NCBI RefSeq assembly: GCF_000633635.1
Contig: NZ_AYPQ01000005.1
Coordinates: forward strand, 8,260 to 72,259
DNA from: Enterococcus crotali
Lineage (GTDB): Bacteria > Bacillota > Bacilli > Lactobacillales > Enterococcaceae
DNA: 64,000 nt
Direction of reading: 5' to 3'
The notes under the pieces were generated by a model. It saw only the letters and a program-made list of their open reading frames with translations. It was not told the DNA's origin and ran no database searches. This document shows positions 38,369-48,279 of this stretch, one piece after another. The translations under genes and the position numbers were made by a program. How positions within the stretch are numbered: the first letter of the stretch is position 1; every line of letters starts with the position of its first letter.

Positions 38369-39432
38369 ATGATACCTTATATATTATTATTTGTCAGCCT
38401 GATTATTCTTTCACTCCTTGAATTTTTTAGCAAAAAGAGAATTTTTTTCATAATTGCAATGATAGAAATCATTTTGTTTGCAGGATTTAGATATGAAACG
38501 GGTTATGATTATCTATCATATAAAGCATTTTTTGAAAGGGTTCGGAGTTTTGGGGATATATTATCGGGTGGTATTGATGCTGAACCGGGTTACTTATTAA
38601 CAAATTATATTGTAAAAATGTTTGGAATGGATTTTAAAGTGTTCATTTTAATCTATTCTGTGGTGACTTTAGCATTATTAGGTTGGTTTGTTTACAAAAA
38701 TGTTAGCTATCCAACAATGATTCTAGTCTATTATGTTTCTCGTTTTTATTTTGTGAGAGATATGGGGCAAATAAGAGCCTCTCTTGTAGCAATTATTTTT
38801 CTTTATTGTTTGCCAGCAATCAAAGAAAAGAATCTACCAAAAGTAATTCTCCTGTCACTTTTAGGAGCCTGCTTTCATATTGTTGCGCTATTTATTATAC
38901 CTGCCTATTTTTTGTCGGAATAATAAAGAAATTAACCTTACAAAAAGTGTTGATTTTAACAATAATTTCCGCACTGATAGGAGTACTATTCTTTTTCCCA
39001 GACCTATTTTTATGGGCAATTCCATCAAGATATGCAGGTTATTTTGCAGGTAAGTATATTACTGGGAAGTGGATACTTAATCCTATATTTATTATGCAAA
39101 TGGGGATTACGATCGCTTCAATACTATTTGTAAAAGGTAAAAATAAAGAATATAATGATAGTTTTAATACGTTATTGAGTTTATATTTTCTATCAACATT
39201 ATTTTTAATTATTTTTGGTCCATTAGCAACTGTAGGTGGAAGGATCGGGACAATATTTGCTACTGCAGAAATATTAGTCGTACCTCAGCTTTTCCGTCAT
39301 ATGTTTAAAAATCAGTATTTGAATTTAGCTTGTTACTATATATTTTGTGCATTAGTCTTTTACTTGATATTTATTGTATCAAATACTTATCAAGATTTTA
39401 TTCCGTATCAAACCGTGTACCATGCTTATTAA
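38369..39432 (+). CDS. EpsG-like polysaccharide polymerase (frameshift, probable sequence error)
   Basis: About 354 residues after repair, nearly all membrane segments. The family mark FRYETGYDYLSYKAFF lies after the second helix, and RDMGQIRASLVAIIFLY follows, as in EpsG-type Wzy polymerases. Adding one T in the T-run at 38908-38913 turns PAYFLSE-stop into PAYFFVGIIKKLTLQ and continues to 39432. It should polymerise the repeating unit outside the membrane with the Wzx flippase encoded three kilobases downstream. The region is visibly more AT-rich than the epa core. Confidence 0.8.
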
Positions 39433-39448
39433 AAGAAAGGAAGTAACA

Positions 39449-41846
39449 ATGAATAAAAAAACAAACAGTAAATATTTAAAAAGCGGCATTATTTTGTGTT
39501 CAATTGCTTTATTTTCAAGTATTGGGTTTATTGATGAAAGTTATAATGTCTCTGCAGAAGAATCGTCTGTCTTCAGTGAGAGTACAACTGCTGATGAAGG
39601 TTCAACAAGTCAATCTGAAGAGACCTCACAAAGCACTGTTGTCTCTGAAACTAGTTCGTCTTCTTCTGATAGCACAGTTGAGACTTCTGAAAGAAATATT
39701 ACGGAAGAAAACAATAAAGAGTTAGGTAATGCTTCAAAAACAGAAGACGGGGAGTATATATTCAACCCTAATGATCGTTCTGATTTAGCAATAACATTAC
39801 GTGCTGCAGCTGAACCCCGTTCACTGATTTCTGCAACAGAAAATAATCGTCCCTCAAAAGATTTTGTAGATATTTCATCTCATAACGGAGCATTATCAGT
39901 TGCTGCTTTTAATGAGATGAAAAATATGGGATAAGAGGTGTCGTGATTAAGTTAACAGAGTATACGACCTATTTAAATCCAGAAGCGAAAACACAAATTG
40001 AGAATGCTAAACGTGCAGGTCTAATTGTCTCTGCTTATCATTATAGTTGGTTTACAACAAAAGCGGGGGCTGAACAAGAGGCGGTGTATTTTGCGCAAAA
40101 GGCAAATCAACTTGGCTTGCCTAAAAATACATTAATGGTCAATGATGCGGAACAAACTGAGATGACAGCAGGTAATGTTACTGAAAATTCTATTGCATTT
40201 CAAAAAAAGTTAAATAGTTTAGGTTTTTCTCGTGTTGCACATTATTCAATGTTTGACTGGTTCAATCGTAAAATACTTGATGAAGATAAGTTGGGTCCTG
40301 GAAATAGTTGGGTAGCAAGTTATCCCTACAATCCATTAGCAACGAATCTCTTACATACAGGGAATGCAGCATGGCAGTGGAGTTCTGAGCTAACTTTTCC
40401 TGGAGTTTCTGGAAGATTTGACATAAATGTATCTTATAATAATTTGTTTTTACAACCAACTGGTGATAATGGTATAAATCTAGCAAATTATCATACTTCT
40501 GCTCCGTTACAAGTGTATACAACAGATAACATTTGGTATTATAATGATATTAATGAATTTTCTGTTAATACCCAAGCTGAAAGACTGCCTAAAGACACAA
40601 TTTTAGACGTTATTTCAATAGAATATAGTAATAGCGGTTATCCAAGATTAGTGACAAATAAAGGCTATGTTTCGGCAAATAAAATGTATTCTAAACCAAC
40701 TATCAGCAACATATCTAGTTATGTTACCAAACCAGGGAAATATGCTGCGCTAGGAAATATCTGGTATTACAATGATAAAGACAGTTTTACGCAAGAAACC
40801 CAAGCTGGGCAAATTGCTAAAAATACTGTTTTTGAAGTGACGGGCATTGTCTTTAGTAAAACTGGTTATCCAAGATTGGTGACGGATAAAGGCTATGTTT
40901 CTGCAAATAAAGCATATGTTAACCAACTTGTAGAAAACTATTCGGATTATCATATGACTTCTGGAAAATTAGTGACAACAACAAGCACTTGGCATTATAA
41001 TAACAAGGATAGTTTTACACAGCAGACACAAGTAGAGCCAATAGCCAAAAATACTGTTTTAACAGTAAAAGATATTGCCTATAGTGAAACTGGGTACCCA
41101 AGGTTAGTAACGGATAAAGGCTATGTTTCAGCAAATAAAGGATATACAACACCTATTGTCAACAATCATTCGGATTATTTTTTAAAGACTGGTAAATTTT
41201 TGACGTCACAAAATATCTGGTATTACAATGATAAAGATCTTTTTGCTACTGAAACACAAGCAGAACCTTTGGCAAAAGGAACAATGATTGAAGTAAAGGA
41301 TATTGTATATAGTGCGACAGGTTATCCAAGATTAGTAACGGATAAAGGCTATGTTTCAGCTAATAAAGGTTATCTTTCTGAAGCTATCAGCAATTTGGGC
41401 AACTATATTACAGAACCAATGAAAGTTGTTACGAGAGAAAATATCTGGTATTACAATAGTAAAGATGAGTTTTCCACTAAAACTCAGGCTGAAAAATTAC
41501 CCAAATACACGCTGCTAGATGTTAAAGGGATTGTGTACAGTGAAACAGGTTATCCAAGGCTAGTAACGGATAAAGGCTATGTTTCAGCAAATAAAAGCTA
41601 TGTTAATCCCGCAATCAGCAACATTGACAGCTATATAACTAAGCCAGGTAAAATGAAGCCAAAGCCAATATCTGGTACTATAACAATAAAGATAATTTCG
41701 CAGTTGAAACGCAAGTTCAACAAATAACAAAAGGTACGACATTTACTGTGAAAGAAATTGTGTACAGTGAAACTGGCTACCCGAGACTAGTTACAGATAA
41801 AGGGTATGTTTCAGCAAATAAAACATATGTGGAAGTCGTAAAATAA
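39449..41846 (+). CDS. Secreted GH25 muramidase with six DUF5776-like repeats (two frameshifts, probable errors)
   Basis: About 799 residues after repair. It has a signal peptide (membrane stretch near 13-27, likely cut after VSA at 36) and a Ser/Thr/Glu-rich linker to about 90. The GH25 lysozyme domain covers about 135-340, with D141 in VDISSHNG, E171 in KLTE, and D233/E235 in VNDAEQ. Six 76-residue C-terminal repeats each end in GYPRLVT(D/N)KGYVSANK. One G added at 39928-39930 and one base near 41655-41657 restore the frame to 41846. It would cut peptidoglycan at the cell surface, perhaps to make room for or release polymer. No LPXTG anchor, so the repeats probably bind the wall. Confidence 0.87.
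40477..41843 (+). repeat. Six tandem 228-bp coding repeats
   Basis: Each unit is 76 codons with core NIWYYN(D)KD...TQAE...GYPRLVTDKGYVSANK. Six units need 1368 bases; 1367 are present, which independently shows that one base is missing in the last unit. Confidence 0.9.
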
Positions 41847-41889: not shown

Positions 41890-43326
41890 GTGAAAAAAGT
41901 ATTGAGTAATATATTTTTTACGGCTATGTATCAAGTAGTAATACTGATTGTTCCGTTAGTAACAATGCCGTATGTATCAAGAATATTCGGAACGGAATTG
42001 CTTGGTATTAATTCATTTGTTATTTCAATTGTTGGTTTTTTGAACATGATCATCTTAATGGGGATGAGCCAGTTAGGTACGAGAGAAATAGCTAAAGCGG
42101 ATAAGAAGGATCGAGGCACAGTTTTTTTCCAATTATGGTTTATCCAATTGGCAAGTGGTTTGATTGTAACGAGTCTCTATTTATTGATTGTTTCAATATT
42201 TGTTGGGAACAAAGGCGTTTATTATATTCAAATTCCTTACTTGATTGCTTATGTTTTAGATATTTCTTGGTACTTCCTTGGTATTGGTGAGGTAAAAAAA
42301 GTAATTGTTAGGAACACGATCGTTAAATTCGGCTCTTTGATTTTGGTGTTTCTACTTGTAAAGAGCAGTTCTGATTTACTATTGTATATGGGAATCAATA
42401 GTATTAGTACTTTTTTAGCAAATATCTTCTTTTGGATCAGCTTACTTGCGGAATTTAAAACGTATGGAAAAGTCAAAAAATCATTTTCTTTTCCTTATTT
42501 GAAGCAAGCATTGTTTTTGCTTATTCCGTTATTTGCGATTCAAGTGTATAATACTTTTGATAAAACATTAGTAGGATTATTATCAACAAAGACAGAGCTT
42601 TCTTTTTACGATCAATCTCAGAAAATTGTTCGAATCGTGTTATCAATCGTTACATCAATCAGCTTAGTTATGATGCCTTTGATGGCTAAAGTGGACACAG
42701 GAGATAGTGAAGACAGTTCTAAGCTACAGTTATTACTGAAAAAATCTGTTGAGTATACAACATTAATCTCCCTATTACTGACAGTTTTACTAATGTGTAA
42801 TTCTCGTGATTTTGTTCAATGGTTTTTTGGAAATGAATTTATTCCAATGACCTATAATATGATATTTGTTAGTTTGATTATTGCACCCAATGCATTTGGT
42901 GGTGTTTTAGCGAATCAATTTACTTTAGCAAAAGGCTTGTTGAAGCATTATTCGATACCTTTTATTGCTGGTGCTGTAATAGATGTTATCTTAAATCTTA
43001 TACTGGTACCGAAATGGGGAGCAAATGGCGGTACTGTTGCGTTGATTGTTACCGAGTTTTGTGTTTGTATTTTCAGAGTCTATGTTATTCGCAAATGGTT
43101 AGATATTAAAGATATTTGTTCTGAGTTTTTTAAATATATGGTTATATTCGCGTTAGTTTTAGTATTAGGATTTTTAATTCCTAACTTTGTAGCATCGTTG
43201 TTCTTGAATATGCTTATTCGTTCAAGTATAGTGTTTATTGTATTTCTTATTTTGATTTTTCTTTTTCAGACCAATATATCTGAGGACTTCAAGGTTCTTT
43301 TAAATAAGGCGAAAAAGAAAACTTAA
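41890..43326 (+). CDS. Wzx-type polysaccharide flippase
   Basis: A 478-residue MATE/MOP-fold membrane protein with about 12-14 hydrophobic segments. The N-terminus VLSNIFFTAMYQVVILIVPL is followed by VTMPYVSRIFGTELLGINSF, the classic O-antigen flippase opening. The loop FDKTLVGLLSTKTELSFYDQ also fits. It moves undecaprenyl-diphosphate repeating units to the outer face for the EpsG-like polymerase. GTG start. Presence of both an ABC exporter (EpaLM) and a Wzx/Wzy pair indicates two assembly routes in one locus. Confidence 0.9.
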   Translation: MKKVLSNIFFTAMYQVVILIVPLVTMPYVSRIFGTELLGINSFVISIVGFLNMIILMGMSQLGTREIAKADKKDRGTVFFQLWFIQLASGLIVTSLYLLIVSIFVGNKGVYYIQIPYLIAYVLDISWYFLGIGEVKKVIVRNTIVKFGSLILVFLLVKSSSDLLLYMGINSISTFLANIFFWISLLAEFKTYGKVKKSFSFPYLKQALFLLIPLFAIQVYNTFDKTLVGLLSTKTELSFYDQSQKIVRIVLSIVTSISLVMMPLMAKVDTGDSEDSSKLQLLLKKSVEYTTLISLLLTVLLMCNSRDFVQWFFGNEFIPMTYNMIFVSLIIAPNAFGGVLANQFTLAKGLLKHYSIPFIAGAVIDVILNLILVPKWGANGGTVALIVTEFCVCIFRVYVIRKWLDIKDICSEFFKYMVIFALVLVLGFLIPNFVASLFLNMLIRSSIVFIVFLILIFLFQTNISEDFKVLLNKAKKKT

Positions 43327-43351: not shown

Positions 43352-44212
43352 TTGAAATCAGATAGTGTTGTAAAACAACTGCAAAAAAAAGAATTGGAAA
43401 TATTAAAATTTGTGGATAAATTTTGTCAAACACAAAACATTCCATACTTTTTATCAGCAGGAACGTTGTTAGGGGCGATTCGCCATAAGGGGTTCATTCC
43501 GTGGGATGATGATATTGATTTAGGCATGACGAGGGAAAATTATGAGCGTTTTGTAAAATTGATTCCGGAAGCTTTAGAAAATACGGAATATATGCTACAA
43601 ACGTATCAAACAGATGCCGGTTATCCATTACCATTTTTAAAAATCATTAATTTGAATACTACTTTAGTTGAAAATAATGCTAAAAATGGAAATGCTCAAA
43701 ATGGTGTTTTTATTGATATCTTTCCATTTGATATAGTACCGGATAACAAGTTTTTAAGATGGGTCCAAATTAAAAAATGCAAGATGCTAACATTTGTCAT
43801 CCATACGAGAATGAATTATTATACTCGTGCTCAAACACCAGTAGGTGGCATAATTTATAGTATGCTAAATCTTTTATGGGGAAGGTATTCTGTAAGGGAG
43901 CTTCTTGACAAACGACAAAAAGAAATTGAGAAATATAACCATTCGAATAATCGAAATATGTCGATCGTCACTGCTACAACGGAATTTAGGACAGAAACCT
44001 TAGATAAAGTAGAGATAAATGATGTAATTAGAATACCCTTTGAGGATGGTATGTTTTTAGCGAATTCAAACTATGAACAGATGTTGAAACAAGCTTATGG
44101 AGATTATATGAAGCTTCCTCCTGTAGAAGAACGAGGAACAAGACATGATATCGTTTATTTAGAAATGGATGATTTTGAGTTTGGAGATCGAACATATAAA
44201 AAGAAAAAATAA
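43352..44212 (+). CDS. LicD family phosphotransferase
   Basis: A 286-residue LicD protein with the nucleotidyltransferase-fold signature SAGTLLGAIRHKGFIPWDDD; WDDDID covers residues 51-56. LicD enzymes move a phosphoryl-linked group (phosphocholine, phosphoglycerol or similar) from a CDP- or related donor to a sugar on a glycan. TTG start behind GGAGGG. The next gene carries a LicC-type cytidylyltransferase domain, which would make the matching donor. No choline kinase or choline transporter gene is nearby, so phosphocholine is not the obvious cargo. Confidence 0.9.
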   Translation: MKSDSVVKQLQKKELEILKFVDKFCQTQNIPYFLSAGTLLGAIRHKGFIPWDDDIDLGMTRENYERFVKLIPEALENTEYMLQTYQTDAGYPLPFLKIINLNTTLVENNAKNGNAQNGVFIDIFPFDIVPDNKFLRWVQIKKCKMLTFVIHTRMNYYTRAQTPVGGIIYSMLNLLWGRYSVRELLDKRQKEIEKYNHSNNRNMSIVTATTEFRTETLDKVEINDVIRIPFEDGMFLANSNYEQMLKQAYGDYMKLPPVEERGTRHDIVYLEMDDFEFGDRTYKKKK

Positions 44213-44243
44213 TCGTATTGAACAAGATCATAGGAGGGATAAC

Positions 44244-46061
44244 ATGCAAGGTCTCATTTTAGCTGCTGGATTAGGAAGCAGAATGAAAGAGTACACAAAA
44301 AGTACTACCAAAAGTATGGTTGAAGTAAATGGAAAGTCATTAATTGAAAGAATGTTACGTCAATTAGATAATCTGGATTTAGAAAGAATCGTGATTGTAG
44401 ATGGCTATAAGTATGATGTTATGGAAGAGTATGTCAAATCAATCCAAATCAAGACACCAGTCGTATTTGTAACGAACCATGATTATGATAAAACAAACAA
44501 TATTTATTCCGTTTATCTGGCTAAAGAATTAATGTGTCAGGAAGATACGATTTTACTAGAATCAGACTTGATTTTTGCAGATCAGCTTCTGGACGAAGTC
44601 TTAGCTTCTGATTTTAAAAATTTAGCGGTTGTATCAAAATTTGAATCTTGGATGGATGGTACTGTTGTAAAAATGGATGAAAACAGTAACATTACAGACT
44701 TTATTGATAAGAAACGTTTTAATTTTAACGAAACTAGAAGTTACTACAAAACGGTTAATATTTACAAATTTAGTAAAGAATTTTCAGAATCTATTTATTT
44801 TCCATTTTTAGAAGCTCAAATGAGTGCCTTTGGGAAAGACGAGTACTATGAGACAACATTAAAAACAATTACTCAGTTTGATGCTACTTTAGTCAAAGCA
44901 TTAGACATTGAAGATGTTCCTTGGTATGAAATTGATGATTTACAAGATTTAGATGTTGCTAGCTCTCTTTTTAATACGACGCCATCGAAAAAATTAGATG
45001 CATTTCAACAAAGATATGGTGGTTACTGGAGATATCCTAAAGTAATTGATTTTTGTTATTTGGTTAATCCATTTTATCCGCCTAAAAGAATGGTTGACGA
45101 AATGAAATCAAATATGGAACGTTTAATTATTGATTATCCTTCTGGTCTTAAAGTGAACTCATCATTAGTAGCAAAATTTTACAACGTTCCAGAAAAGCAT
45201 GTAGTAGTAGGAAATGGTGCTGCAGAATTGATTAAGTCTTTGATGGAAAAAAATGGCGGAAAATATGGGATTATTGCACCAACTTTTGAGGAATATCCAA
45301 ATCGCTTAACGAAAGACCAAATTGTTAAATATTACCCTAAAGATAAAAATTTCCAATATACTGCAAATGATATCATGGCTTTTTATTCAGAAAATCCAAT
45401 TGATTATTTAGTTTTAATCAATCCAGATAATCCTACTGGGAATTATATTCCGAAATCAGATGTCATCACACTACTAGAGTGGGCAAAGGCACATGAAATA
45501 ACTATAATATTGGATGAATCGTTTAATGATTTTGTCGATTTTGAAGAGGTACCATCTTTAATTGATCGAGAAATTTTGATGCAACATCCTAATTTAATTA
45601 TTATAAAAAGTATCTCCAAATCATTTGGCGTTCCAGGTGTACGTTTAGGTTTCTTGATGACGAGTGATGAATCATTAATCAGCTATATTAAATCAGATGT
45701 TTCTATTTGGAATATCAACTCATTTGGAGAGTTCTTCTTACAAATTTTTGAAAAATATAAAAAAGACTATCTATCAGCATTAGATTTATTTTATAAGATC
45801 CGTAAAGATTTTCATTCTGCAATGGCTGAAGTATCAGATTTTGAAGTAATTGATTCACAAGCTAACTATTTTACTTGCCGTCTTACAGGTAAAGTAAGTG
45901 CTCGAGAATTGGCTACAATTCTATTAGATAAAGACAAAATCTTTATCAAGGACTTATCTGGAAAAGATGGTTTTGAGGGAGAATACGTAAGAATTGCAGT
46001 GAAGAAAAGTGATGAAAATAAAAAAATTGTTGAAGCTTTAAAACGGATATTGAATTACTAG
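44244..46061 (+). CDS. Cytidylyltransferase (LicC-like) fused to a PLP-dependent aminotransferase/decarboxylase
   Basis: A 605-residue fusion. Residues 1 to about 240 are a sugar/alcohol-phosphate nucleotidyltransferase with LILAAGLGSRM at 4-14 and TKSMVEVNGKSLIER. From about 260 on it is a fold-type I PLP enzyme of the HisC/CobD class: GNGAAELIKS at 323-332, NPDNPTGN at 393-400, DESFNDF at 424-430, probable PLP lysine K459 in SISKSFG, and R467 in PGVRLGF. CobD-type enzymes decarboxylate phosphothreonine or phosphoserine, so the fusion could make and activate an amino-alcohol phosphate. The ATG at 44244 follows AGGAGGG. It belongs with LicD. Confidence 0.85.
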   Translation: MQGLILAAGLGSRMKEYTKSTTKSMVEVNGKSLIERMLRQLDNLDLERIVIVDGYKYDVMEEYVKSIQIKTPVVFVTNHDYDKTNNIYSVYLAKELMCQEDTILLESDLIFADQLLDEVLASDFKNLAVVSKFESWMDGTVVKMDENSNITDFIDKKRFNFNETRSYYKTVNIYKFSKEFSESIYFPFLEAQMSAFGKDEYYETTLKTITQFDATLVKALDIEDVPWYEIDDLQDLDVASSLFNTTPSKKLDAFQQRYGGYWRYPKVIDFCYLVNPFYPPKRMVDEMKSNMERLIIDYPSGLKVNSSLVAKFYNVPEKHVVVGNGAAELIKSLMEKNGGKYGIIAPTFEEYPNRLTKDQIVKYYPKDKNFQYTANDIMAFYSENPIDYLVLINPDNPTGNYIPKSDVITLLEWAKAHEITIILDESFNDFVDFEEVPSLIDREILMQHPNLIIIKSISKSFGVPGVRLGFLMTSDESLISYIKSDVSIWNINSFGEFFLQIFEKYKKDYLSALDLFYKIRKDFHSAMAEVSDFEVIDSQANYFTCRLTGKVSARELATILLDKDKIFIKDLSGKDGFEGEYVRIAVKKSDENKKIVEALKRILNY

Positions 46062-46091
46062 AAAGTAGATCTATAAAGGAGAACTGAAATC

Positions 46092-47144
46092 ATGGTTTTA
46101 TTGTTACCTATGCAAACTAGCTATTTGAATACTAGTGGACATATTTACGACTCAGAATTCATCAATTTAGTCCAACTCTCAGAGGGAAGTGTTAAATTTG
46201 ATGAACGAACTTTATTTTTAAATCAAGAAGAGAAGGATTTTTTGAATGGTCAAAAAATTGTTGAGATCTCTGATTCTATTGTTGTTTTTAAAAACAAAGA
46301 GAAATGGGGATTAATCGCTAATCTACCAAAAGAGGAGTACATCAAAGGCAACGTTAAAAGTCATGAATTAGTTCTTCCTTCAACGGTTCAAGGAATGCTC
46401 AGTAATTTTCACGGTTATAACGGTGAAGCAGCTCCCGTTTTATTAGGACATGAAAGTTTAATTGATTTGGAGAGTTTTGTTAAAGTAAATGAACCAGATA
46501 AACGGCATGCTATTAACGATTATGAATTGTTTATTTATCAGGGAGAAAAGGCTGCAAAACTTCTTTCACAGTATCAGGATTTGGACCAGTTGTTTATTGG
46601 TGATGGGCATCATAGATTGTATACAACCTCCTTGTCAAACTTTAAACAAACTGTTTTTGCTTGTGTCATGAGTTTTGATTACTTAGATATCTTACCAATT
46701 CATCGTTTGTTGAAAGAGGTATCCGATGAAATGTATTTACATGCCTTAAATTTTTTAAGTAAGAAATTTGAATTAAAAAAAGTAGCGGCTGATTCAGTTT
46801 TGCCTAAAGGGCATGTTAGAATGTCAAGAGGGCGTGATCATTATTTGATTCGTTTAATTGATTTAGCATCAGATGCTTTTTGGAATAATGATATTTATCG
46901 ATTAAACACTCAAATCATTTCCCAAGCTTTTCGTAGTTTTGACCAAGCAGAGATTCAATATATATCAGAAGAAATGCTAAAAAATTCCAAATCATTTTCT
47001 GAACAAGATGTTATACTTGAAACGCACGCACTTTCTAAAAAAGAATTTATTGAAGCTGCTAAAAATGATACAGTTTTACCACCAAAATCGACTTGGGTTT
47101 ATCCAAAGTTTCCTTCTTTTTTACTTATGAACAAATATCAATAA
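46092..47144 (+). CDS. DUF1015 family protein (possible amino-acid kinase)
   Basis: A 350-residue soluble protein resembling DUF1015: IANLPKEEYIKGNVKSHELV aligns with the family's ..HE.T region, and the conserved loop GDGHHRLYT is at 170-178. The DGHHR loop recalls the ParB/sulfiredoxin-like serine kinases SbnI and SerK. DUF1015 genes often sit near serine synthesis genes; from memory, a kinase role has been proposed. Here it lies 30 bases after the PLP fusion gene with AAGGAG before its ATG. It could phosphorylate the amino acid that the fusion then decarboxylates. Function is inferred. Confidence 0.68.
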   Translation: MVLLLPMQTSYLNTSGHIYDSEFINLVQLSEGSVKFDERTLFLNQEEKDFLNGQKIVEISDSIVVFKNKEKWGLIANLPKEEYIKGNVKSHELVLPSTVQGMLSNFHGYNGEAAPVLLGHESLIDLESFVKVNEPDKRHAINDYELFIYQGEKAAKLLSQYQDLDQLFIGDGHHRLYTTSLSNFKQTVFACVMSFDYLDILPIHRLLKEVSDEMYLHALNFLSKKFELKKVAADSVLPKGHVRMSRGRDHYLIRLIDLASDAFWNNDIYRLNTQIISQAFRSFDQAEIQYISEEMLKNSKSFSEQDVILETHALSKKEFIEAAKNDTVLPPKSTWVYPKFPSFLLMNKYQ

Positions 47145-47160
47145 TCTTGGAGGTAAAATA

Positions 47161-48279
47161 ATGAAAATTTGTATTGTTGGCTTTGGAAATATTGGAAGTG
47201 CACTAGCTGGGATGCTTTCTTTAGGAGGTCATGATGTTCGCGTATTTACTTCTGTCCATTTAGGGCAGGATCACCCGTTTACGTTAAATAAAATGGGTTC
47301 AACGAAAGAAATGAGTACGACAATTAATTTAGTTACGAATGATTTAGAAGTTGCCGTTAAAGATGTGGACATGATTATCGTTACTTATCCATCTTTTATG
47401 TTGGAGTCATTTGTTAAAAATGTTTCAGTTTTTCTAACAAAACCAATTCTTTTTGGTGTTGTTCCAGGAAGCGGTGGAGCTGAGTATATAACTAAACAAG
47501 TATTTACACAAAAACATGTGATTTTTGGTTTAGATAGGGTTCCTTATATTGCTCGATTAATTGAAAAAAATCATTCGGTCGAGTTTTCCAAAAAAGAGTC
47601 TGTTAATGTGGCTGTAATCCCTAAAAAAGAAACAGTTACTGTCGCAAAAACTTTAGAAGACCTTTTACAATTACCCGTTTATCCGTTGAAAAATTATTTA
47701 GAGGTTTCGTTGACGCCCTCTAATGCCATTTTACATACTTCTAGAATATATAGCATGTTTAAAGAATATCATTCAAACATCACTTATTCCAAGGTTCCCT
47801 ATTTCTATAGAGATTGGACATTGGACTCTTCTGACAGTTTGATTGCTTTAGATAAAGAGTTAAGAACAATTATCTTGGCTATGCCCGAATTAGAATTATC
47901 GACTATCAAGACTATTCGTGAACATTATGAGGCACCGACTGTTGAGACAATGACCAATAAAATAAAAAGCATTTCAGCTTTTAAGAATATTTTGTCCCCA
48001 ATGAAAAAAGTTTCAGATCAGACATTTGTCCCGGATTTTACATCTAGGTATTTTACAGAAGACCTTCCGTTTGGTTTATTAATCATTAAAGGGTTTGGTC
48101 TGATAACGGGAACTGCTACTCCAGAGGCGGATAAAATTATTTTATGGAGTCAAAAATGGCTTAATAAGGAATATCTGACTGAGCAAGGGGCACCAGGACC
48201 AGATTTTTTAGCTTCAGGTGTTCCTCAAGCTTATGGCATTAACACATTGGAAGAGACGTATCATTTTTATAAATCTTGA
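47161..48279 (+). CDS. NAD/NADP octopine/nopaline dehydrogenase-like oxidoreductase
   Basis: A 372-residue oxidoreductase with an N-terminal Rossmann domain (GFGNIG at 7-12) and a helical C-terminal domain like that of opine dehydrogenases (HTSRIYSMFKE, then VPYFYRDW with an arginine-aspartate pair). Opine dehydrogenases join an amino acid and a 2-keto acid reductively to give an N-carboxyalkyl amino acid. Some enzymes of this type act on small polyols or keto acids instead. GGAGG lies before its ATG, 16 bases after DUF1015. It is probably part of the same set that makes an unusual substituent. Confidence 0.72.
   Translation: MKICIVGFGNIGSALAGMLSLGGHDVRVFTSVHLGQDHPFTLNKMGSTKEMSTTINLVTNDLEVAVKDVDMIIVTYPSFMLESFVKNVSVFLTKPILFGVVPGSGGAEYITKQVFTQKHVIFGLDRVPYIARLIEKNHSVEFSKKESVNVAVIPKKETVTVAKTLEDLLQLPVYPLKNYLEVSLTPSNAILHTSRIYSMFKEYHSNITYSKVPYFYRDWTLDSSDSLIALDKELRTIILAMPELELSTIKTIREHYEAPTVETMTNKIKSISAFKNILSPMKKVSDQTFVPDFTSRYFTEDLPFGLLIIKGFGLITGTATPEADKIILWSQKWLNKEYLTEQGAPGPDFLASGVPQAYGINTLEETYHFYKS

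Follow-up and report, generated by a model that had tools for sequence, protein, structure and literature searches.

What do four adjacent genes, among them a cytidylyltransferase fused to a pyridoxal phosphate (PLP) enzyme, contribute to a surface-polysaccharide locus of Enterococcus crotali? We analysed a stretch of 64,000 nucleotides from this organism (contig NZ_AYPQ01000005.1, positions 8,260 to 72,259; hereafter the window), in which a LicD-family phosphotransferase, the fusion protein, a short DUF1015 protein and an octopine-dehydrogenase-like enzyme (ODH) are encoded one after another on the + strand, 31, 30 and 16 bases apart. From gene content, homology, fold, conservation and linkage we consider it probable that these genes form a decoration cassette, in which serine would be converted via O-phosphoserine to CDP-ethanolamine, the amine N-carboxyalkylated and the product transferred to the polysaccharide by LicD.

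In the proposed route the SerK-like DUF1015 protein would, judging by homology, phosphorylate free L-serine to O-phosphoserine. The fusion would carry out activation with CTP and decarboxylation in either order and yield CDP-ethanolamine, as suggested by its fold, its closest relatives and the precedent of FrbH. ODH would join a 2-keto acid, of which pyruvate is the likeliest, reductively to the primary amine and so form N-(1-carboxyethyl)ethanolamine in phosphate or CDP form, a step to which conserved linkage and family chemistry point; it should act after the decarboxylation, because the PLP enzyme requires a primary amine. LicD would then move phospho-N-(1-carboxyethyl)ethanolamine onto the glycan, in keeping with the function of its family. 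We infer the reaction order, the identity of the keto acid and the stereochemistry from these comparisons.

An initial annotation, made from the sequence alone, had described four closely spaced genes of one direction and had proposed much of this chain. Open reading frames and Pfam matches agree with the layout, all the named parts (LicD, the fusion, DUF1015, the opine-dehydrogenase-like enzyme) are confirmed by Pfam, GDGHHR is present in the DUF1015 sequence, and the chain as a whole stands, now better supported by homology, fold and gene linkage. The fusion occurs in 4 of 22 genomes of the genus, including that of the window, and the three other carriers hold all four genes in the window's order (80-99% identical); since the order is identical there, the arrangement is not due to chance. 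For wider comparison we used 81 loci, namely the window and the best 80 of 90 fusion relatives. These 80 are 45-57% identical to the fusion, and their record titles name Bacillota, Bacteroidales, Akkermansia, Spirochaetaceae, Ignavibacteriales and Methanobrevibacter.

The cytidylyltransferase/PLP fusion

The listed reading frame of the fusion opens at 44169, but the ATG at 44244 is preceded by an AGGAGGG site and is most likely the start; the LicD and fusion genes would therefore not overlap. Pfam recognises NTP_transf_3 (6e-11), NTP_transferase (3e-10) and Aminotran_1_2 (1e-33), and the predicted model reaches a pLDDT of 93.5 over the entire protein. The N-terminal domain (44244..44970, approximate boundary) is LicC/PntC-like. 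Its nearest PDB sequences are 6pd1 (PntC, 3e-15), matching only residues 3-241 of the fusion (numbered after alignment A2, whose first row opens one codon ahead of the ATG), and 1jyk (LicC, 5e-12), which fits the activation of an alcohol phosphate proposed initially. The C-terminal domain (45000..46061, approximate boundary) is CobD/SMUL_1544-like and would be a decarboxylase of O-phosphoserine (or CMP-phosphoserine). It carries the Schiff-base lysine, and its nearest structures are amino-acid-phosphate decarboxylases: by sequence 6oux (the decarboxylase SMUL_1544, 7e-47) stands before CobD (4e-25), and by fold both lead, with HisC rows ranking lower and 3ftb close. The initial annotation had called for this comparison with CobD and HisC, and its assignment of the domain to the amino-acid-phosphate decarboxylases is favoured by sequence as well as predicted fold. 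The CobD profile TIGR01140 (threonine-phosphate decarboxylase) also scores above the HisC profile TIGR01141 (166.9 vs 138.9 bits), both lying under their curated cut-offs (290.55 bits for TIGR01140). A Sulfurospirillum relative of the PLP half, 30.5% identical, is annotated as norcobamide biosynthesis serine-O-phosphate decarboxylase; unlike the fusion, SMUL_1544, the decarboxylase of norcobamide synthesis, stands alone and belongs to a cobamide operon (context seen for the Sulfurospirillum relative). The best reading of homology, model and analogy is that the fusion would activate O-phosphoserine with CTP and decarboxylate it to CDP-ethanolamine.

Two other reactions of the PLP domain have to be weighed. 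If it decarboxylated O-phosphothreonine, as in cobalamin side-chain synthesis, CDP-1-amino-2-propanol would result. This we hold to be improbable, given the better match to SMUL_1544 than to CobD; a WNIN stretch is also shared with SMUL_1544 and not with CobD, but it recurs in 3ftb and is suggestive only. Moreover, the kinase SerK is described as specific to free serine and inactive on threonine (PMC5120207). Very improbable, in our judgement, is a transaminase that forms, for example, serinol phosphate as for Campylobacter Cj1437, with CDP-serinol as the product. The fold is indeed common to HisC-type transaminases, and Cj1437 (serinol phosphate) is reported from the same capsule locus as the serine-phosphate decarboxylase Cj1436 (PMC12409886); however, HisC rows fall below the decarboxylases despite the closeness of 3ftb, and the linked SerK-like gene points to O-phosphoserine. 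The Campylobacter pair resembles the cassette in decarboxylating serine phosphate for a surface glycan, whereas in Campylobacter an amide bond links the amine to glucuronic acid, the phosphate is lost, and LicD transfer is not described in the available part of the source (PMC12409886).

The phosphonate isostere of O-phosphoserine is 2-amino-4-phosphonobutyrate. FrbH, with an N-terminal cytidylyltransferase and a C-terminal decarboxylase, is described as acting on this compound (PMC8976061, PMC6697681), and the window's fusion shares its plan of an N-terminal MobA-like NTP transferase and a C-terminal CobD-like PLP domain in one chain. Both the domain order and the two proposed reactions match. 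FrbH was compared by its description, the aligned stand-ins being distant fusions in FR-900098-like surroundings (L133). It differs in serving a phosphonate antibiotic, FR-900098, whereas the window's fusion stands among polysaccharide genes, together with LicD and a serine-kinase-like gene, and a true phosphoenolpyruvate (PEP) mutase was not found in the window genome. PntC-AEPT of Treponema denticola (6pd1) likewise has an N-terminal cytidylyltransferase fused to a PLP enzyme, with LicD-like genes nearby (PMC6697681); its PLP half, however, is a class V transaminase of a phosphonate pathway, unlike the decarboxylase-like Aminotran_1_2 domain here. With FrbH and PntC as relatives, the fusion might handle a C-P compound and the decoration be an aminoalkylphosphonate, and a PEP mutase fusion protein does occur in 8 of the 81 stretches, in one case (L068) directly beside the fusion. 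The other seven PEP mutase genes lie 5-8 kb away, a Fusobacterium record with fusion, DUF1015 and LicD gives no PF13714 match, and the single PF13714 match in the genome of the window is without the EDKxxxxxNS motif (for the motif see PMC6697681), which leaves this explanation highly improbable. A phosphonate decoration in the window organism itself was considered and set aside as unlikely, as no PF13714 protein with that motif was found in its genome. The eight cytidylyltransferase/PEP mutase fusion proteins are those of L021, L032, L033, L035, L038, L049, L050 and L068 (Pfam-scanned in L050 and L068); phosphonate and phosphoserine pathways may exist side by side in these loci.

Reductases beside the fusion

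The last gene of the cassette (47161..48279, 372 amino acids) matches PF02317 (1e-27; 97.5 bits against a cut-off of 30) and resembles octopine dehydrogenase (OcDH, 3c7a) over its whole length (2e-38). OcDH is reported to join pyruvate and L-arginine reductively, using a His-Asp dyad and Arg324 (PMC2924402). In the alignment these OcDH residues (His, Arg324 and Asp) correspond to H192, R296 and D301 of the window ODH, and among 16 ODH rows, one of them incomplete, His and Arg are present in 15 of 15, with Asp in 13 and Glu in two. The position aligned to OcDH Gln118, which we take to be relevant to amine substrate choice of ODH, is S, T, N, M or Y across the 16 rows. The cassette enzyme has the likeness and the His-Asp pair and Arg of the octopine dehydrogenase/CENDH family, but differs from it in its location in glycan loci next to a CDP-ethanolamine-type module; given this location, an amino acid is probably not the amine that it uses.

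ODH was found no further than two genes from the fusion in 16 of the 81 loci, and a gene of the unrelated ornithine-cyclodeaminase (OCD)/mu-crystallin family of imine reductases in 13 others. Both together were found in none of the 81 loci, neither near the fusion nor elsewhere in the stretch. In the PDB, the OCD genes are related to pyrroline-carboxylate reductase (3e-18) and to archaeal alanine dehydrogenase (2e-14), both of which act on 2-imino acids by reduction. The linkage is tight: 16 of 17 ODH genes and all 13 OCD genes of the 81 stretches lie no more than two genes from the fusion, mostly directly adjoining it, against a baseline of 301 of 1121 neighbouring genes. The 17th ODH (L012) is 3.6 kb off the fusion and is masked by a reading frame that overlaps it; weak ODH-like matches also stand away from the fusion in two loci, L049 and L022. 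Binomial values of 7e-10 and 4e-8 leave out the 17th ODH, ignore the kinship of loci and serve as a guide only; the test is also partly circular, because the models for ODH and OCD were themselves derived from genes in the neighbourhood of the fusion. In a careful tree of 29 fusions the ODH and OCD labels need nine changes, a single ODH clade is rejected (p-AU 1.2e-85), and sister fusions carry opposite reductases (L005/L007, L025/L048, L041/L042). No conclusion is drawn from the placement of the window row: the quick tree warned of two long branches meeting there, and the branch is also long in the careful tree.

Since the unrelated ODH and OCD occupy a single position next to almost identical fusions, they appear to share one chemical task, presumably the reductive condensation of the fusion-made amine with a 2-keto acid. 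This would give a specific role, N-alkylation after decarboxylation, to the oxidoreductase, which the initial annotation had left vague as supplying or modifying the substrate. The linkage also speaks against a plain phosphoethanolamine decoration, in which the fusion would make CDP-ethanolamine for transfer by LicD and ODH would act elsewhere, for example on another glycan amine. For this simpler scheme one may cite the nine of the 81 loci in which a LicD-type gene but no reductase accompanies the fusion at a distance of at most two genes (eight alone, one with a methyltransferase), and the amino acids that are the usual substrates of octopine dehydrogenase (PMC2924402). Nevertheless, with the reductases so consistently beside the fusion in very different organisms, we regard it as unlikely.

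The DUF1015 protein and serine kinases

The DUF1015 protein (46092..47144, 350 amino acids) is SerK/SbnI-like and would supply O-phosphoserine as a free-serine kinase. Its Pfam match (8e-13) covers profile positions 96-286 of 325 only. When its profile was compared with 177635 PDB sequences, the top four were SerK-type (1vk1, E 0.0082; 5x0b, 5x0j and 5x0e, E 0.08-0.09), followed by a value of 0.54. The nine best rows of the structure comparison were SerK, SbnI and 1vk1, obtained with a poor model that rested on five sequences and left the N-terminal half unmodelled. With SerK (TK0378) and SbnI the protein shares the DGHHR and PK-T motifs in common order, and its better-modelled part may have their fold; it differs in being longer. 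The serine or threonine kinase proposed initially thus gains some ground, and we treat the protein as a candidate kinase of free serine.

A canonical DUF1015 gene follows serC and serA in all seven longer loci from the window's order (L148, L103-L108), its own genome included (L148, C2:554500-560500), and SerB was found above the TIGR00338 cut-off in none of the 18 genomes searched. A SerK-like enzyme working in reverse could provide the missing final step of serine synthesis. Two other lines were tried and not kept. Genome-wide presence of DUF1015 is seen in 32 of 36 fusion genomes (the window's, three relatives and 32 of the 80 locus genomes; 84 fusion genomes in all) but also in 123 of 249 genomes of the phylum, and was given no great weight. 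The expectation that SerC would be absent wherever DUF1015 is linked to the fusion held for two of three locus genomes (G305 and G306, not G304) and for none of four of the genus. Viral contigs contained one DUF1015 relative and, as far as found, no relative of the fusion. Judged by titles and the starts of abstracts, the literature searched gave neither a function for DUF1015 nor a link to a (serine) kinase.

Several observations weigh against the serine pathway as a whole. The window genome has a SerC and a canonical DUF1015 of its own, DUF1015 adjoins just 4 of the 81 fusions, and its model is poor; 52 of the 81 loci have neither reductase nearby, and the PEP mutase fusion proteins described above count here as well. 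The strict four-gene set is also rare, being confined to the four carriers among the 22 genus genomes and one other locus. The co-occurrence expected by the initial annotation is therefore seen in the genus and in that one locus, a Faecalimonas metagenome-assembled genome (L075), where genes for a wzx-like protein, a short LicD-like protein (Pfam 28.6 bits, cut-off 22.6), DUF1015, the fusion and ODH are consecutive. Partial sets are ODH, fusion and DUF1015 in L045 and fusion and DUF1015 in L029.

Variants of the module and its place in the locus

Of the 29 loci with a linked reductase, 20 have a LicD-type gene no more than three genes from the fusion, compared with 10 of the 52 others. A methyltransferase lies within two genes in five of the 81 loci, none of them with a reductase; on a Gloeothece plasmid (L138) fusion, S-adenosylmethionine methyltransferase and LicD are consecutive, a set which suggests that phosphocholine might be made from serine without choline uptake. 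In Fusobacterium a formyltransferase-like gene precedes the fusion and LicD is found three genes upstream (the Fusobacterium vincentii record, L131, is titled plasmid pSB055A but measures 2.1 Mb and is probably a mislabelled chromosome). In place of a reductase, 24 of the 79 rows in the tree have a neighbour that resembles either a poly(glycerophosphate) transferase or a YidC-sulfatase protein. Distant fusions (~32% identity) of Priestia megaterium pBM700 (L133), Erwinia (L132) and Rahnella (L136) all have a CDP-alcohol-type phosphatidyltransferase, situated after the fusion in the latter two, and that of Priestia is accompanied by a DXR, an acetyltransferase of AAC(3) type and a gene that weakly matches lysine/ornithine monooxygenase. 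These surroundings recall FR-900098 clusters. No PEP mutase match was found on the three plasmids; the enzyme could be chromosomal, or the product a phosphate ester. Overall, the fusion looks like a general CDP-ethanolamine module that may be combined with varied amine-modifying enzymes (ODH, OCD, methyltransferase, formyltransferase-like) and transferases.

Upstream of the cassette, a Wzx-type flippase (41890..43326, + strand; Polysacc_synt, 7e-23) likely exports glycan units; it is 94.8-98.7% identical in L100-L102, conserved along with the cassette, and falls into one BLAST cluster with the L075 gene at -3. The LicD gene (43352..44212, + strand, TTG start, 286 amino acids) matches PF04991 over all 227 profile positions (1-227; E 1e-48, 166.9 bits against a cut-off of 22.6). 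On the 3' side follow a GalE-like epimerase, a GDPD protein (Pfam) and the IPP transferase gene miaA. The slot before GDPD-miaA holds other genes in all four readable relatives without the cassette (L142 was left out, its stretch being too short), and in two of them these include two LicD genes and a separate IspD-family cytidylyltransferase (Pfam was run on one of the two). The cassette is therefore a swappable module, and its site is a variable decoration slot of the surface-polysaccharide locus with a conserved flank and exchangeable content. The label Epa-type for this locus is a reading based on the initial annotation and judgement and on no search result. Further upstream, the frames at 38369-39432 and 39374-41727 are split (184+208 and 186+594 amino acids) but single and intact in L100-L102 (354 and 808-839 amino acids), so that the splits could be genuine or stem from errors in sequencing.

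In the well-known LicC/LicD route, choline has to be imported. The cassette shares with this phosphocholine decoration the activation of a CDP-alcohol and the transfer by LicD, but its amino alcohol is apparently derived from serine and its amine probably N-carboxyalkylated. The plan of the fusion is known from FrbH; phosphoserine decarboxylation (Cj1436 and the Sulfurospirillum annotation) and LicD decoration are likewise known. As far as our searches show, the combined route from serine to a CDP-ethanolamine-based surface decoration, the role of DUF1015 and the reductase swap are new; nothing related turned up on CDP-ethanolamine, phosphoserine and LicD, as judged by the starts of abstracts. 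By family chemistry, ODH should yield the R form and the alanine-dehydrogenase-like OCD the S form. Tentatively, ODH and OCD might be interchangeable parts of a widespread CDP-ethanolamine module, each making N-(1-carboxyalkyl)ethanolamine phosphate in its own form, (R) or (S), or from a different keto acid. Exchange of the reductase would in that case switch the stereochemistry of surface antigens in several phyla, and DUF1015 would be a serine/phosphoserine phosphotransferase family. We know of no described biosynthesis of N-(1-carboxyethyl)ethanolamine phosphate, and none was found in the literature listings searched. N-[(R)-1-carboxyethyl]ethanolamine phosphate is named among the components of Proteus mirabilis O-polysaccharides (PMC9630907).

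Phosphoethanolamine- and phosphocholine-type decorations shape how hosts and phages perceive surface glycans. If true, a self-contained pathway that leads from serine to CDP-ethanolamine would account for many glycan loci that lack annotation, give DUF1015 a function and offer a first candidate, at the level of genes, for the synthesis of N-(1-carboxyethyl)ethanolamine phosphate, so far a substituent known from structures; sets related to the cassette recur in distant gut bacteria and may account for the synthesis of a known surface decoration.

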